Positions 3,472-59,976 of a DNA stretch of 64,000 bases are shown piece after piece. This DNA comes from Lactiplantibacillus nangangensis (GTDB lineage: Bacteria; Bacillota; Bacilli; Lactobacillales; Lactobacillaceae). The notes beneath the pieces are model-generated. The model saw only the letters and a program-made list of their open reading frames with translations, was not told where the DNA came from and did no database searches. Location of the stretch: contig NZ_BJDI01000002.1 in NCBI RefSeq assembly GCF_005405065.1, positions 186,001-250,000 of the forward strand, written 5' to 3'. Position 1 is the first letter of the stretch, and the number at the start of each line of letters is the position of its first letter. The position numbers and the translations under genes are program-made.

Positions 3472-3514
3472 AAAAAGTCGAGACAGGGGGTCAACCCGTT
3501 GCCTCGACTTTTTT
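3472..3514 (+). terminator. Terminator after thiN
   Basis: AAAAAGTCGAG pairs with CTCGACTTTTT around a loop of about 20 bases that contains a further short stem. The descending arm runs into six T. It closes the pknB/rsgA-rpe-thiN block. Confidence 0.85.
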
Positions 3515-3574
3515 GTGAACGATTTAAAGGATAGAAAATTGCTGCTTCGTCTTGCTGTGTTAGCGGTTAAACAA

Positions 3575-3919
3575 TGAAGGATAGTTGCTGGTTGTCGCTT
3601 CCGGTTATTATTGATAACATGCGGCCGAGGGACCGGGCCAAGCCTGAAAAACGTCTTGTCCCTCGCCCGGAAGCCTTGCACAACTCGCAAATCTCCCGGC
3701 CGGTCCGTGGTGTAAGACCGGAAAATCACCGGTCAAACGCCACCCACACGCCCGATACTATCAATAATAACTACAGCTAGTAAACTTTTTTGACTAATAA
3801 GATAGTTGTTTAGTTAGCAAAGTCGGCCAGAGTGATACGAAATATAAAGCCATTTTAAACACAACAAACACTGGTATTACTGGATTTATGAGTGCCTTAT
3901 TACTTTCAACCTCGTAATT
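3575..3919 (+). repeat. Dispersed structured repeat, copy A (three copies in the window)
   Basis: About 345 bp, similar over its length to 18913-19325 and 55153-55495. The first 200 bp fold into a branched structure. A closing stem pairs TTATTATTGATA (3605-3616) with its exact complement at 3759-3770. Inside are hairpins around GGGCCAAG/CTTGTCCC (one mismatch), GCCCGG/CCGGCC and GACCGG/CCGGTC. The last 130 bp are less constrained and end with a conserved ACTTTCAACC. An open frame across it (3574-3780) is rejected as coding. From 3920 to 4144 I see only AT-rich sequence with no gene. Confidence 0.8.
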
Positions 3920-18579: not shown

Positions 18580-18837
18580 ATGGCAGATATTAAAGCTTTA
18601 ATCAAAACGGTCGTCACACCGTTGGTTCAATATCCTGCCGATATTGCGATTGATTTCAAAGAAACCACTCGTTACTTGGAATATAACTTAACGGTTAATC
18701 CTGAGGATATCGGTCGGGTCATTGGCCGACAAGGACGCGTTGCTTCGGCAATTCGGACGATTGTGTATAGTGTCCGAGTTTCAGGACCTAAACGAGTTCG
18801 TCTTACGATCGAAGATGGACAGAAAAAAAACTCTTGA
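18580..18837 (+). CDS. khpA: KH domain RNA-binding protein KhpA (YlqC)
   Basis: An 85-residue protein that is essentially one KH domain with the GxxG loop in VIGRQGRVAS. With KhpB it binds many small RNAs and affects cell elongation in streptococci and lactobacilli. It is spaced 17 bases from rpsP. Its stop lies inside the ascending arm of the terminator. Confidence 0.92.
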   Translation: MADIKALIKTVVTPLVQYPADIAIDFKETTRYLEYNLTVNPEDIGRVIGRQGRVASAIRTIVYSVRVSGPKRVRLTIEDGQKKNS

Positions 18838-18871
18838 GCGAAGCAGTAATGTTTTGTTCGAGAGCTTTTTT
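18831..18871 (+). terminator. Terminator overlapping the khpA stop
   Basis: CTCTTGAGC pairs with GTTCGAGAG (two G-U) and is followed by CTTTTTT. The gene end and the hairpin overlap. Confidence 0.75.
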
Positions 18872-18912
18872 ATTACAAACAAAAGGTTGAAAATAACTGG
18901 TTCATCCGACTG

Positions 18913-19325
18913 TGAAGGATAGTTGATAATTGTCGCTTCCGATTGTTGTTGATAACATGCGGCCGAGGGACCGGGACAAGCCTGAGAAACGTCTTGTCCC
19001 TCGCCCGGAAGACCTGCGTAAACCGCAAGTCTCCCGGCCGGTCCGTGGTGTAAGACCGGAAAGTCGCCGGTCAAACGCCACCCACACGGCCGATGCCATC
19101 AACAACAACCTACAGCTAGCTAACTGCTTTGAGTGATTGTCAGTTATTTAGATATTTAGCGAGATCAGTCAGAATTTGTGGCTGTGTCGACAGGGATAGT
19201 CGGCGTGGCGTTGAGACACGAAAATTGATTCTGCTTGTCGGAGCTGATAATCCGTATAAGGCCATTTTAGTCATAATCAACGCTAGTATTTCATGGCAGC
19301 TTTGATACTTTCAACCTTTAATTAC
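18913..19325 (+). repeat. Dispersed structured repeat, copy B
   Basis: Homologue of 3575-3919 in the same orientation, placed between khpA and rimM. The closing stem pairs TTGTTGTTGAT (18943-18953) with ATCAACAACAA (19098-19108), where copy A has A-U pairs at three of these G-C positions. The inner hairpins GGGACAAG/CTTGTCCC, AGAC-TGCG/CGCA-GTCT and GACCGG/CCGGTC are intact, making this the best-folding copy. The 3' part is about 60 bp longer than in A and ends with ACTTTCAACCTTT. Confidence 0.8.
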
Positions 19326-19356
19326 AAAAATAATGGTCAAATATAAGGAGGATTAA

Positions 19357-26170: not shown

Positions 26171-26775
26171 TCACAATTTATTTGGCGGAAGATCAGAGTA
26201 TGCTGAATTCTGCCTTGACACAGTTATTAGAGCTGGAAGATGATTTACATGTCGTCGGGTCGGCGGGCGATGGTCAAACTGCTTGGGACGAGCTACAACA
26301 ATTACAACCCCAAGTCGCAATTTTGGATATTGAAATGCCCGGCTTATCTGGTTTAGACGTCGCCGACCGGATTCAAAATAGTCAGCTCACGACTAAGGTT
26401 GTTATTTTGACGACGTTCGCGCAAAAGGCCTACTTTGAGCGAGCAGTTAAGGCACAGGTCGCGGGGTATTTGTTGAAGGATAGTCCTAGTGATGATCTGA
26501 TTGCAGCGATTCGAAAAGTGATGCTTGGGCAGACACTTTATGCGCCGGAATTAGTGGTCAATATGTTATCTGCCGACCAAAATCCCTTAACTGATCGTGA
26601 ACTGGCCGTGTTAAAAGTGGCTGATCAAGGCCTGCCGACGAAAGCGATTGCGAGTGAACTCTATTTATCTGCCGGCACGGTGCGTAATTATTTGTCGGCA
26701 ATATTTAGCAAACTTGGCGTCCATAATCGACTTGAGGCCATTAGTGTGGCTAAGCGTAATAAATGGCTGAGCTAG
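26167..26775 (+). CDS. Response regulator, NarL/FixJ family
   Basis: A 202-residue protein. The receiver domain has the acidic pair EDQ near the start and the phospho-acceptor Asp in VAILDIEMPGLSG; the LuxR-type helix-turn-helix spans about residues 143-200. ATG overlaps the kinase stop (ATGA). The last 180 bases recur almost unchanged at 30349-30528. The likely target is the operator before the ABC genes. Confidence 0.92.
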   Translation: MITIYLAEDQSMLNSALTQLLELEDDLHVVGSAGDGQTAWDELQQLQPQVAILDIEMPGLSGLDVADRIQNSQLTTKVVILTTFAQKAYFERAVKAQVAGYLLKDSPSDDLIAAIRKVMLGQTLYAPELVVNMLSADQNPLTDRELAVLKVADQGLPTKAIASELYLSAGTVRNYLSAIFSKLGVHNRLEAISVAKRNKWLS

Positions 26776-26865: not shown

Positions 26866-27501
26866 TTAATTACAGGTTGGCATAATTGATTTTAGTTGTG
26901 TCACTTGTTTATCTGTGCCATTTTTGAAGATATAGTCGAAGACATCATGCTTTTGATAAATTGGTGCCATAAAATCAGAATCAATTTGGTTAATTGTGTC
27001 GATTAGATTAGTCTGAGCCAACTGTTTAATATTTTGCAACATCAGCGCGTCATGTTCTTTACGTTCAGAAGCTGCCTGCGGATAGCCAGTATTCATGGGA
27101 CCATCAAAGAGCTTTTCCAGCGTAAATTTGAGATTTAATTCACCCGCCCAGCCGAAATTTAGGCCTAGCGGTAGTGAGGCGCAGTTGCCGTGATTGATGC
27201 GGCCAAACAAGTAGGCATCACTAGGTGTGGGCAAATAACCACAAATGACATTGGGCAAACTATTGCAGGCAATTGCCATCCCATTGCCGGAACTACAACC
27301 AGTAATGACATAGTCGACCGCTTTAGTATTGAGCAGTAGGCCAACTAATAGTGAGACTTGAACGTAGGATAACTTTGGATCGTGTTCAAAAACACCAAAG
27401 TTAATCACCTCATTCTCAGCTCCAGCAGCTTGTTGGGTAGCCTGGAACAATAAGTTGTTTTTATCGATTTGCGTGGTAGCCTGGATCACTGCAACTTTCA
27501 T
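26866..27501 (-). CDS. RpiB/LacA/LacB family sugar-phosphate isomerase-like protein, paralogue 1
   Basis: A 211-residue protein starting MKVAVIQATTQ. The segment VDYVITGCSSGNGMAIACN resembles the RpiB/LacAB active-site loop, where the family usually has CGTGxG; here the Cys is kept but Thr-Gly is replaced. It is about 60 residues longer than typical RpiB. A close paralogue lies at 31414-32049. The substrate is unknown, and the changed loop makes the exact reaction uncertain. Confidence 0.75.
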   Translation of the reverse strand: MKVAVIQATTQIDKNNLLFQATQQAAGAENEVINFGVFEHDPKLSYVQVSLLVGLLLNTKAVDYVITGCSSGNGMAIACNSLPNVICGYLPTPSDAYLFGRINHGNCASLPLGLNFGWAGELNLKFTLEKLFDGPMNTGYPQAASERKEHDALMLQNIKQLAQTNLIDTINQIDSDFMAPIYQKHDVFDYIFKNGTDKQVTQLKSIMPTCN

Positions 27502-30330: not shown

Positions 30331-30528
30331 AGCTTTCCACTAACGGAACGTGAACTGGCCGTGTTAAAAGTGGCTGATCAAGGCCTGCCGACAAAAGCGA
30401 TTGCGAGTGAACTCTATTTATCTGCCGGCACGGTGCGTAATTATTTGTCGGCAATATTTAGCAAACTTGGCGTCCATAATCGACTTGAGGCCATTAGTGT
30501 GGCTAAGCGTAATAAATGGCTGAGCTAG
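30331..30528 (+). pseudogene. Fragment of a response-regulator gene (LuxR-type DNA-binding domain only)
   Basis: Bases 30349-30528 equal 26596-26775 with one change in 180, ending exactly at the stop codon. The preceding 15 bases still encode PLTER-like residues (PLTDR in the intact gene), then an in-frame TAA lies at 30328-30330. No start codon or ribosome binding site is present. It is a truncated copy left by duplication, deletion or gene conversion. Confidence 0.85.
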
Positions 30529-31413: not shown

Positions 31414-32049
31414 TTAGTAATCGGGAACAATGAGTTTTATGCTGTTCACAAGATTCTGTTCAGAACCATTTTTGAAGATATAGTCGAAGACATCATGTTT
31501 TCGATAAATTGGCGCCATAAAATCAGAGTCAATTTGGTTAATTGCACCGATTAGATTAGTCTGAGTCAACCGCTTAATATTTTGCAACATCAACGCGTCA
31601 TGTTCTTTACGTTTAGAAGCTGCCTGCGGATAACCGGTATTCATTGGACCATCAAAGAGCTTTTTCAACGTGAATTGGAGGTTTAATTCACCGGCCCACC
31701 CGAAATTTAGGCCTAGCGGTAGTGAGGCACAGTTGCCGTGATTAATGCGGCCAAATAAGTAGGCATCACTAGGTGTGGGCAAATAACCACAAATGACATT
31801 GGGCAAACTATTGCAGGCAATCGCCATCCCATTGCCAGAACTACAACCAGTAATGACATAGTCGACTGCTTTAGTATTGAGCAATAGGCCAACTAATAAT
31901 GAGACTTGGACGTAGGATAACTTCGAATCGTGTTCAAAAACACCAAAGTTAATCACCTCATTCTCAGCTCCAGCAGCTTGTTGGGTAGCTTGGAACAAGA
32001 GGTCGTTTTTATTGAGCTGTGTGGTTGCCTGAATCACTGCAATTTTCAT
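31414..32049 (-). CDS. RpiB/LacA/LacB family sugar-phosphate isomerase-like protein, paralogue 2
   Basis: A 211-residue paralogue of the product of 26866-27501. It carries the same ITGCSSGNGMAIACN loop. Roughly 9 percent of bases differ by eye in a 290-base stretch, and the last 15 residues are unrelated (ending LIVPDY instead of MPTCN). The upstream regions share an ACGCTCC and AATTGTAACGCT pattern. Both copies look intact, so subfunction or dosage rather than decay is likely. Confidence 0.75.
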   Translation of the reverse strand: MKIAVIQATTQLNKNDLLFQATQQAAGAENEVINFGVFEHDSKLSYVQVSLLVGLLLNTKAVDYVITGCSSGNGMAIACNSLPNVICGYLPTPSDAYLFGRINHGNCASLPLGLNFGWAGELNLQFTLKKLFDGPMNTGYPQAASKRKEHDALMLQNIKRLTQTNLIGAINQIDSDFMAPIYRKHDVFDYIFKNGSEQNLVNSIKLIVPDY

Positions 32050-55156: not shown

Positions 55157-55495
55157 GGTAGTCGATGATTGCTGCTACCGGTTGTTGCTGATAGCATTCG
55201 GTCGAGGGACCGGGGCAAGCCTCAGAAACGTCTTGCCCCTCGGCTGGAACTTTGCCAAAATCGCAAATCTCCCAGCCAATCCGTGGCGTAAGACCGGAAA
55301 GTCGCCGGTAAAACGCCACCCACACGGCCGATGCTATCAGCAACAGCCTACAGCTAGTCAACATTTTTGAGTGACTTGTTAGTTGGTTAAATTTAGCGGA
55401 ATGACCAGTTGTATGAGTCCATTTTGGAGATAGCCAACGCCAGTGTTACTGGATTCACGCCAGCTTTGACACTTTCAATCTTTAAACAGTAATTG
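55153..55495 (+). repeat. Dispersed structured repeat, copy C
   Basis: Homologue of copies A and B, same orientation. The closing stem GTTGCTGATAGCAT (55184-55197) pairs exactly with ATGCTATCAGCAAC (55331-55344), 14 pairs. GGGGCAAG/CTTGCCCC replaces GGGACAAG/CTTGTCCC of copy B, and GGCTGG/CCAGCC replaces GCCCGG/CCGGCC: both are paired changes. At the 5' end GGTAG/CTACC replaces GGATAG/CTTCC. It lies between dnaD and its presumed terminator. Confidence 0.82.
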
Positions 55496-55497
55496 AA
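55483..55497 (+). repeat. Right 15-base direct repeat flanking copy C
   Basis: Second exact copy of TAAACAGTAATTGAA. It leads straight into the AAAAAGCGC of the terminator hairpin, so joining left and right repeats restores a dnaD stop followed at once by a terminator. Confidence 0.75.
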
Positions 55498-55538
55498 AAA
55501 GCGCTCAAATCGCAAATAACTGCGATTTGAGCGCTTTT
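55497..55538. terminator. Bidirectional terminator between dnaD and ponA
   Basis: AAAAGCGCTCAAATCGCA pairs exactly with TGCGATTTGAGCGCTTTT around AATAAC. It can serve both the plus-strand dnaD and the minus-strand recU-ponA unit. Confidence 0.85.
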
Positions 55539-55552
55539 GATTGAACCATGAC

Positions 55553-59584: not shown

Positions 59585-59976
59585 TGTAAATTCTGGGTAA
59601 TCGCGGTCGGCTTAAGTCGGCTGAGGAAGGTCCATGCCCGCACAAGCTGCGATGCTTGTAGTGTTCGTGCTCGGTGAAAAAATAAGCTGGGGAACCGATT
59701 TTATCGGTTACGGCGGAAAAAACGGCTAAGGCGCAAGCTATGCCCGAGTATTCCTGAAAAGTGCCACAGTGACGATACTTAGTTGGAAACGACTAAGTTG
59801 GAACGCGGTAAACCCCTCGAGCGGGCAACCCAAACTACGGTAGGGGCGCTTCACATAAGTAAATGAACTAAATGTGGGGGGAGATCCTTGTGATCTCGAG
59901 ATAGATGATTGCCGCCTAACTAACAGACACCTGTACTTTAGTTAGGTACAAAACATGGCCTACAGGAATTTACATT
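59585..59976 (+). ncRNA. rnpB: RNase P RNA, type B
   Basis: The catalytic RNA of RNase P, which matures tRNA 5' ends. GAGGAAGGTCCATGC at about 59621, the ACGGCTAAGGCGCAAGC and AACCCAAACTACGG segments and a 3' ACAGGAATTTACA are diagnostic. The 5' TGTAAATTCTG pairs with the 3' CAGGAATTTACA to close helix P1, which sets the ends. It lies between gpsB and rlmL as in Bacillus. Confidence 0.95.

Follow-up and report, generated by a model that had tools for sequence, protein, structure and literature searches.

A foldback DNA family of Lactobacillaceae, probably kept paired at the DNA level and carried in Lactiplantibacillus by an IS4-type vehicle

The stretch of Lactiplantibacillus nangangensis DNA analysed here (64,000 nt, positions 186001-250000 of contig C2 in a genome of 2.9 Mb; hereafter the window) contains three copies of an intergenic repeat in which bases on the two sides of the stems change together, and this raises the question of what keeps the stems paired: a functional RNA, a fold of the DNA itself or a mutational process that imitates selection. 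The first-pass annotation held that the fold of an RNA, or alternatively of the DNA, is selected and favoured a structured RNA carried on a small dispersed element. The features of the window on which the analysis is built are the following, with bit scores and E values referring to the covariance model R1 introduced below:

3473..3516, + strand: intrinsic-terminator-like hairpin and T-run 3' of the upstream gene, ~10 nt before element A (read, and found by script)
3525..3914, + strand: copy A, entire element, with a degenerate left end TAAAGGATAGAAA (3525-3537) and a right end TTTCAACCTCG (3904-3914)
3596..3778, + strand: copy A, folded arm (core); 187.2 bits, E 7e-48; DNA fold z -4.4
18823..18871, + strand: intrinsic-terminator-like hairpin and T-run immediately 5' of the copy B target duplication (read, and found by script)
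18872..18879, + strand: copy B, left 8-bp target-site duplication ATTACAAA
18880..19320, + strand: copy B, entire element, with inverted ends CAAAAGGTTGAAAA (18880-18893) and TTTCAACCTTTA (19309-19320)
18934..19117, + strand: copy B, folded arm (core); 203.9 bits, E 2e-52; DNA fold z -7.1 (+ strand) and -9.4 (- strand)
19321..19328, + strand: copy B, right 8-bp target-site duplication ATTACAAA
55143..55156, + strand: 14-nt direct repeat AAACAGTAATTGAA left of copy C, containing the stop codon of the upstream ORF
55157..55484, + strand: copy C, entire element, with right end TTTCAATCTTTA (55473-55484)
55173..55355, + strand: copy C, folded arm (core); 184.7 bits, E 3e-47; DNA fold z -8.4
55484..55497, + strand: 14-nt direct repeat right of copy C, with one base in common with the right end
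55497..55539, no single strand: bidirectional intrinsic-terminator-like hairpin immediately 3' of copy C (read, and found by script)
59589-59967: RNase P class B RNA (336 bits), which served as the RNA control

The three copies are real and all lie on the + strand, with cores that are 83-90% identical in pairwise comparison (A/B 164/183, A/C 151/182, B/C 156/183). Their common orientation, as annotated, is thus correct; a common overall length is not, because the ends delimit three different spans and near-constancy of length is confined to the core. Young copies from a relative served to set the ends of copy A, and inspection of its flanks revealed no recognisable target duplication; at the left of copy C no inverted end is recognisable. 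A terminator-like hairpin adjoins every one of the three copies, at a distance of ~10 nt (A) or directly (B and C). Copy B is flanked by what we take to be a KH-domain-like gene on one side and a rimM-like gene on the other. The corresponding site of another genome (G018, locus L048, 1470-1684) is occupied by an arm of a different subfamily, with flanks homologous on both sides, either because the target site has been used more than once or because an old insertion is shared.

The paired changes that had drawn attention to the repeat are present in the sequence, as is the single mismatch of copy A. The 5' hairpin GGATAG/CTTCC, by contrast, has no place in the family-wide fold, having been built on leader sequence that is altered or missing in other copies; in the consensus a 5' CGCT pairs with a 3' AGC instead. 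To define the fold, 30 diverse cores were aligned and 63 candidate pairs tested, of which one was dropped, and model R1 was built on the remaining 62. The conserved unit is a branched foldback arm of ~185 nt: a short foot (CGC...GCT) leads into an outer stem of ~13 pairs, a second stem of ~9 pairs and a three-way junction, from which one branch forms the hairpin GTGGTGT...ACGCCAC and the other, a 4-pair GGAC/GTCC stem, opens into a second three-way junction bearing two hairpins.

This arm is abundant in the genome that carries the window: R1 yielded 108 matches, 9 of them antisense readings, which leaves 99 places, and 85 score above 100 bits. Across the genus, matches with E <= 0.001 were obtained in 16 of 21 genomes, in 12 with E below 1e-15 and in four weakly (G001, E 5.7e-4; G010, G012 and G013, ~2e-10), and three genomes contain at least 126 scored candidates each. 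Such per-genome counts pool second arms with first ones and contain some antisense readings. When the best 10 candidates per genome were scored throughout the Lactobacillaceae, 49 of 251 genomes (the present one included) and 10 of 40 genera proved positive. A sample of 299 genomes of the class, scanned under stricter filters with the best 8 candidates scored per genome, produced a match in the present genome only. A DNA pattern scan has Lactiplantibacillus species, Companilactobacillus species and an uncultured Lactobacillus among the matches listed, and the plasmid and phage records contained nothing matching copy B. A shorter relative of ~154 nt, scoring 50-64 bits with R1 (G000:C2:6892-7045, C13:5930-6083, C3:69086-69239 and others), recurs in the present genome, in G010 and in G013 (loci L073, L074, L089 and L090) and is perhaps a separate subfamily.

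Arms also occur as twins, two of them tail to tail, in 33 of 163 elements from relatives (first grouping) and, by our own count, in 25 of the 40 stretches that came from other genera. The second arm of a twin has diverged in sequence, yet it scores on R1. In the present genome a second arm is recognisable in 2 of 29 stretches, and in none within the window.

Covariation persists, and at a level well beyond chance, in the larger alignment. Among the 30 diverse homologues, 39 of the 62 pairs have changed on both sides, as compared with 20.6 (s.d. 2.5) in shuffled alignments, none of 500 of which reached that number; 93.7% of the pairing cells are paired, against 81.7% after shuffling and at most 41.9% when the partner is slid by 1-3 columns. 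In other genera, many pairs take every one of the four Watson-Crick forms and exceptions are few, and the cross-genus alignments show conservation of the unpaired motifs as well as of the branched layout. The outer stem, the strands of which are ~150 nt apart, covaries as strongly as the short hairpins. Folded as single-stranded DNA, the cores of copies A, B and C are 4.4, 7.1 and 8.4 s.d. better than their dinucleotide shuffles, and the core of copy B folds strongly on both strands (z -7.1 on the + strand and -9.4 on the - strand).

One rival explanation can be dealt with at this point, namely that the arm encodes a short protein. A frame starting at ATGCGG is indeed open to the end of the core in 52 of the 62 copies of the present genome. 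As read by eye, the same frame is interrupted by TAG in the G020 copies and in some copies of G009 such as L032; core lengths elsewhere fall into all three phases (remainders 0, 1 and 2 in 65, 37 and 48 cores of alignment A2, and in 26, 20 and 22 of A4); and covariation through four Watson-Crick types is not a product of codons. The coding reading was rejected on these three grounds, and we give it next to no credence.

Compensatory changes are routinely read as the mark of a functional RNA, and this family combines strong covariation with a DNA-like wobble signature. In RNA, a G·U pair is almost as good as a Watson-Crick pair and an A·C apposition is not; for a DNA fold, or for anything that needs both strands, G·T and A·C are equivalent. 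Counting the two kinds of intermediate is therefore a simple computational check of RNA against DNA. The control behaved as expected of an RNA: class B RNase P sequences from the present and related genomes, aligned on the Rfam structure (31 sequences), contain 350 G·T and 18 A·C among 2,995 cells, the numbers for the 14 from the genus alone are 186 and 3, and a count between nearest neighbours gave 95 and 13, with 179 Watson-Crick doubles.

The arms behave differently. In comparisons between nearest neighbours among the 62 copies of the present genome, where reciprocal neighbours enter twice, single changes comprise 98 G·T, 98 A·C and 52 other mismatches; with every neighbour pair taken once, the figures are 81, 80 and 47, with 62 Watson-Crick doubles. 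The first of these two counts also contains 97 double changes, against 13 expected if the sides were independent, and 75 of these lead from one Watson-Crick pair to another. Arms of other genera, every pair taken once, gave 58 G·T, 95 A·C, 83 other mismatches and 347 Watson-Crick doubles. Alignment A2 (the best 150 of 183 matches) contains 278 G·T and 262 A·C; a single frequent T·G pair accounts for 96 of the G·T, and a single pair of doubtful status for 22 more. These main counts rest on alignments A2, A4 and A5. Alignment A3 (the best 150 of 182 matches) holds ~10 low-scoring antisense readings of arms already included, in which G·T and A·C are swapped; they are absent from A2, A4 and A5 and enter the subfamily consensuses, the tally of the T·G pair, the pooled count and the clustering count given below.

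The consensuses of eight subfamilies (256 of 267 distinct rows kept) share one recurrent T·G (5/8) and otherwise contain 3 G·T, 7 A·C and 19 other mismatches. Since they follow the same pattern, decay of dead copies fails to explain the missing wobble. Weak strand effects do exist, and in both directions. The base pair of the last hairpin, read on the + strand, is TG in 140 cases, TA in 41, CG in 31, GC in 26 and AT in 9, a frequency of T·G that favours folding of the + strand at that position, and the pooled counts, with some antisense rows included, have an excess of A·C (343) over G·T (255). The stems of the arm thus change in Watson-Crick pairs, with G·T and A·C intermediates tolerated alike (STATISTICALLY), and we conclude that the force keeping the arm pairs is blind to the difference between the two.

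The preference for G·U over A·C that characterises an RNA family is accordingly not found in the arms, where the ratios are 98:98 in the genome and 58:95 in other genera as against 350:18 for RNase P, and because the pairing force treats G·T and A·C alike, a stable RNA is unlikely as the selected form. Of the initial annotation, the dispersed element with a kept fold stands and the alternative of a DNA fold was rightly kept; the wobble counts, the strong folding of both strands and the changes of DNA-hairpin type described below for young copies speak against its structured RNA. A requirement on RNA made from both strands is formally possible and less simple. The Rfam search that the annotation had proposed pointed the same way: at gathering scores neither the arms of the window nor those of ten other loci had a hit, and at a lax threshold copy A drew two weak ones (E 0.65 and 2.7), so that the arms match no described family.

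The position of the arms relative to genes bears on the same rival, which in its full form holds that a functional structured RNA, a 3'-UTR element or a small RNA on a dispersed element, acts on the gene upstream of each copy. In addition to the strong covariation, the conserved unpaired motifs and the one frequent T·G pair, this reading could claim that solo arms have a sense bias relative to the upstream gene (51 co-oriented, '>>', against 19 '<<') and that many arms in other genera start 3-25 nt after a stop codon. Any transcript running through a tail-to-tail twin, however, would contain one of its arms in antisense. Of the 42 twin arms in other genera whose upstream gene is in sense, 24 start within 23 nt of the stop codon of that gene. 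In several twins a terminator-like hairpin, seen by eye, lies between the arms.

Conservation in place was assessed in eight pairs of apparently orthologous loci. Four comparisons at three loci of genus g39 put the identity of the arms at 92-98%, that of the inter-arm stretch at 77-85% and that of the 150 nt next to the arms at 84-99%, with one adjacent side exceeding the arm in one of the four comparisons, so that orthologous arms there are better kept than most of the neighbouring noncoding DNA, as the RNA reading would have it. A close pair within Lactiplantibacillus revealed no difference (arm 89%, adjacent sequence 87-89%), and in three distant pairs of that genus the arms (78, 78 and 64%) stand beside adjacent sequence of 46-67% with many gaps, in what may be separate insertions. 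The conservation of arms at orthologous sites hints at either a role in place or slower mutation. Within the present genome, arms diverge by 11.8% where trailers diverge by 28.9% (120 pairs; trailers recognisable in 16 of 62 copies) and by 8.6% where leaders diverge by 19.8% (21 pairs; leaders recognisable in 7 of 62); we do not count this contrast as selection in place because the usable copies are few and an evolving source element could give the same result. On the balance of this evidence and of the wobble counts, we regard an RNA acting on the upstream gene as quite improbable.

With pairing at the DNA level as the preferred reading, the next question is how the arms move. Of 19 stretches fetched from a relative, genome G020, 14 contain near-identical young copies with both ends. 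These copies begin with CTAAAGGTTGAAA and end with its complement, forming terminal inverted repeats, measure 336-544 bp and lack a transposase gene. At least 7 of 8 positions of the flanking 8-bp target duplications agree in 11 of the 14, compared with 1 of 182 mismatched flank pairs. The same genome contains an autonomous insertion sequence (IS) of 1.57 kb with the same ends (C1:64426-65992; L237:927-2493), which is flanked by the target duplication GATAGGAG and encodes a 457-aa transposase matching the NCBIfam IS4 family model NF049925.1 (460.3 bits, cut-off 250) as well as Pfam DDE_5 and DDE_Tnp_1, both above their cut-offs. Judging from these shared ends and duplications, Lactiplantibacillus arms ride non-autonomous IS4-family elements, that is, miniature inverted-repeat transposable elements (MITEs). 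A search of 41 genomes for this transposase (E <= 0.001) returned matches in 11, many of them weak or fragmentary, and none in the genome of the window.

The vehicle and the arm are nevertheless not coextensive. We looked for the left end of the MITE in the 130 nt preceding each arm, allowing a single mismatch. It is recognisable at 1 of 70 arms from L. fabifermentans, at 57 of 172 from the rest of Lactiplantibacillus, at 3 of 21 from genus g30 and at none of 68 from other genera, and the reverse-complement control was 0 throughout. As the sampled arms of other lineages are mostly devoid of its ends, arms are distributed more widely than the IS4-type vehicle. Furthermore, the stretches fetched for the G020 IS and for four other loci with a related transposase yielded no arm. 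The annotation had named a known IS family as a possible explanation of the sequence; the IS4 family does account for the movement of copies within the genus and, since the fetched IS stretch contains no arm, it does not account for the arms. No autonomous element with a gene between two arms was found either, the gaps of 1.6 kb (L092) and 2.7 kb (L358) containing, by eye, long host-like ORFs.

The association with terminators extends to the insertion sites of the vehicle. In 9 of 17 empty sites reconstructed for G020, that of the IS included, the insertion point lies within 15 nt of a terminator-like hairpin, and in eight at 10-13 nt; the corresponding value for 400 random intergenic points of the window, which belongs to a different genome from the insertions, is 15%, mostly within a hairpin. 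The finder, which misses loops longer than 9 nt, saw no hairpin near 5 of the 17 insertions, and the IS, one of these five, has a terminator seen by eye only; both ends had been found in 17 of the 20 loci supplied. This documents an IS4-type transposon with a tendency to insert beside transcription terminators. As observed by eye, the IS sits behind a terminator-like hairpin and carries another just inside its left end.

Comparison of a twin of genus g4 with four relatives yielded no clean empty site, as gene order differed. At the homologous gene end a terminator-like hairpin follows at once in G135 and G256 and ~30 nt on in G023, and none was seen nearby in G109. The two genes flanking the twin at L256, 587-1007 (G205), lie at a distance from each other in G023 and on separate contigs in three further relatives, and this twin-arm element may mark a rearrangement breakpoint.

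The young copies also provide a view of the events that alter an arm. In L201, the sequence along one side of the last hairpin and its neighbour has given way to an exact reverse-complement copy of the facing side, producing a perfect palindrome at the cost of the conserved GTCC. Copies L205 and L206, at different sites and with duplications of their own, have in common a deletion that removed a hairpin unit between GGACCG repeats; L188 and L197 have lost the second arm, and L196, L203 and L204 parts of an arm. In L043 of G009 the internal loop of the last hairpin, which relatives retain, has become a perfect palindrome. One young copy thus bears a clear footprint of template switching, and another copy a probable one. 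Between the orthologous copies L271 and L276, one hairpin tip (L271, ~890-925) has been rewritten as a block while the remaining arm is nearly identical, possibly in another templated event.

These rewrites, together with the equal treatment of G·T and A·C, make it necessary to weigh an explanation in which no fold is selected: inverted repeats would be kept complementary by template-switch (quasipalindrome) mutation, and the apparent compensatory evolution would be illusory. Template switching that restores stems has been described for RNA genes (PMC8794818, in the part available to us), which lends this reading a published mechanism. Templated mutation alone cannot, however, conserve unpaired motifs and a branched layout across genera. 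Moreover, compensations came in 205 runs of length 1, 12 of length 2 and 3 of length 3, and neighbouring double changes numbered 18 against 11.2 expected, with 300 simulations reaching 22, a slight clustering within the simulated range. Because double changes are barely clustered and the long-range outer stem covaries like the short hairpins, template switching is insufficient on its own; we consider it unlikely as the only cause and take templated repair to be a contributor to the pairing of the arm.

Collectively, these observations are best explained by a foldback DNA family of Lactobacillaceae whose pairing is kept at the DNA level and for which the IS4-type enzyme is only a vehicle in Lactiplantibacillus, an interpretation that we hold to be probable. 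The fold would form in DNA, as a hairpin on single-stranded DNA during replication or as a cruciform, and its upkeep may be due partly to selection for the DNA fold and partly to hairpin-templated (template-switch) repair. That the IS4-type enzyme would be a mere vehicle is argued from the armless IS, from the damaged-arm copy that reached a second site and from the arms found elsewhere without these ends. Our best guess is that the arms are recognised by a host or element factor acting on folded DNA.

A bolder version of this interpretation, which we put forward tentatively and rate as somewhat less probable than its negation, makes the arm itself what is selected and what spreads. It would be a folded-DNA element of the whole family, with one three-way junction nested in another, whose pairing is constrained in DNA, double- or single-stranded, and not in RNA; through some factor it would act at gene ends beside terminators in the ten sampled genera, the IS4 transposon being only borrowed in some lineages.

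Several known systems resemble the arms in part. REP sequences, BIMEs and REPINs are extragenic, lie near gene 3' ends and terminators, singly or in inverted pairs, and are thought to be recognised as folded DNA; a Y1 (RAYT) transposase mobilises these short, simple hairpins and leaves no target duplication. The arms share their extragenic location near gene 3' ends or terminators and the single or inversely paired arrangement, and differ in being ~185 nt long and branched and in having, in this genus, a DDE (IS4) transposase as vehicle: the Lactiplantibacillus copies are bounded by IS4-type ends and 8-bp duplications. The attC sites of integrons are near-palindromic single hairpins in cassette arrays, whose single-stranded DNA fold is kept while the sequence drifts. 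In the arms, too, the fold outlasts sequence drift; they are branched and dispersed, unlike the single hairpins of attC arrays. IS4-family insertion sequences have the transposase, inverted ends and 8-bp duplication of the G020 partner and differ in that the stretches fetched for that partner and for four related loci contain no arm.

Bacterial MITEs mobilised by IS in trans (PMC10969869, a review available in part) are, in the text accessible there, similarly short, non-autonomous and intergenic, with ends and duplications common to a resident IS and a strong fold. Unlike such elements, the arms have a 62-pair branched structure that covaries, occur in 10 genera and also without IS ends, and behave in Watson-Crick fashion only. 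The BOX, RUP and SPRITE repeats of Streptococcus pneumoniae are structured intergenic repeats of a Firmicute proposed to be MITEs, and SPRITE is enriched near gene 3' ends (PMC3049150), all of which the arms recall. Their folds are drawn for the transcribed form and the term covariation is absent from that paper. The likeness noted here is one of description. Lactobacillus johnsonii is included in a table of stem-loop families (PMC2267715, in the portion available). A search of the open-licence literature turned up no description of the present repeat in lactobacilli, and other literature may describe it. The family documented here is an abundant one in Lactobacillaceae and, with many dozens of copies in single genomes, offers a natural data set on the formation, copying and repair of DNA hairpins in living cells.

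Finally, the window contains two other pairs of direct repeats, 26583-26775 and 30336-30528 (193 nt, 97%) and 26918-27217 and 31466-31765 (300 nt, 92%), the latter inside two 211-aa ORFs on the - strand. The two pairs probably represent a local duplication.
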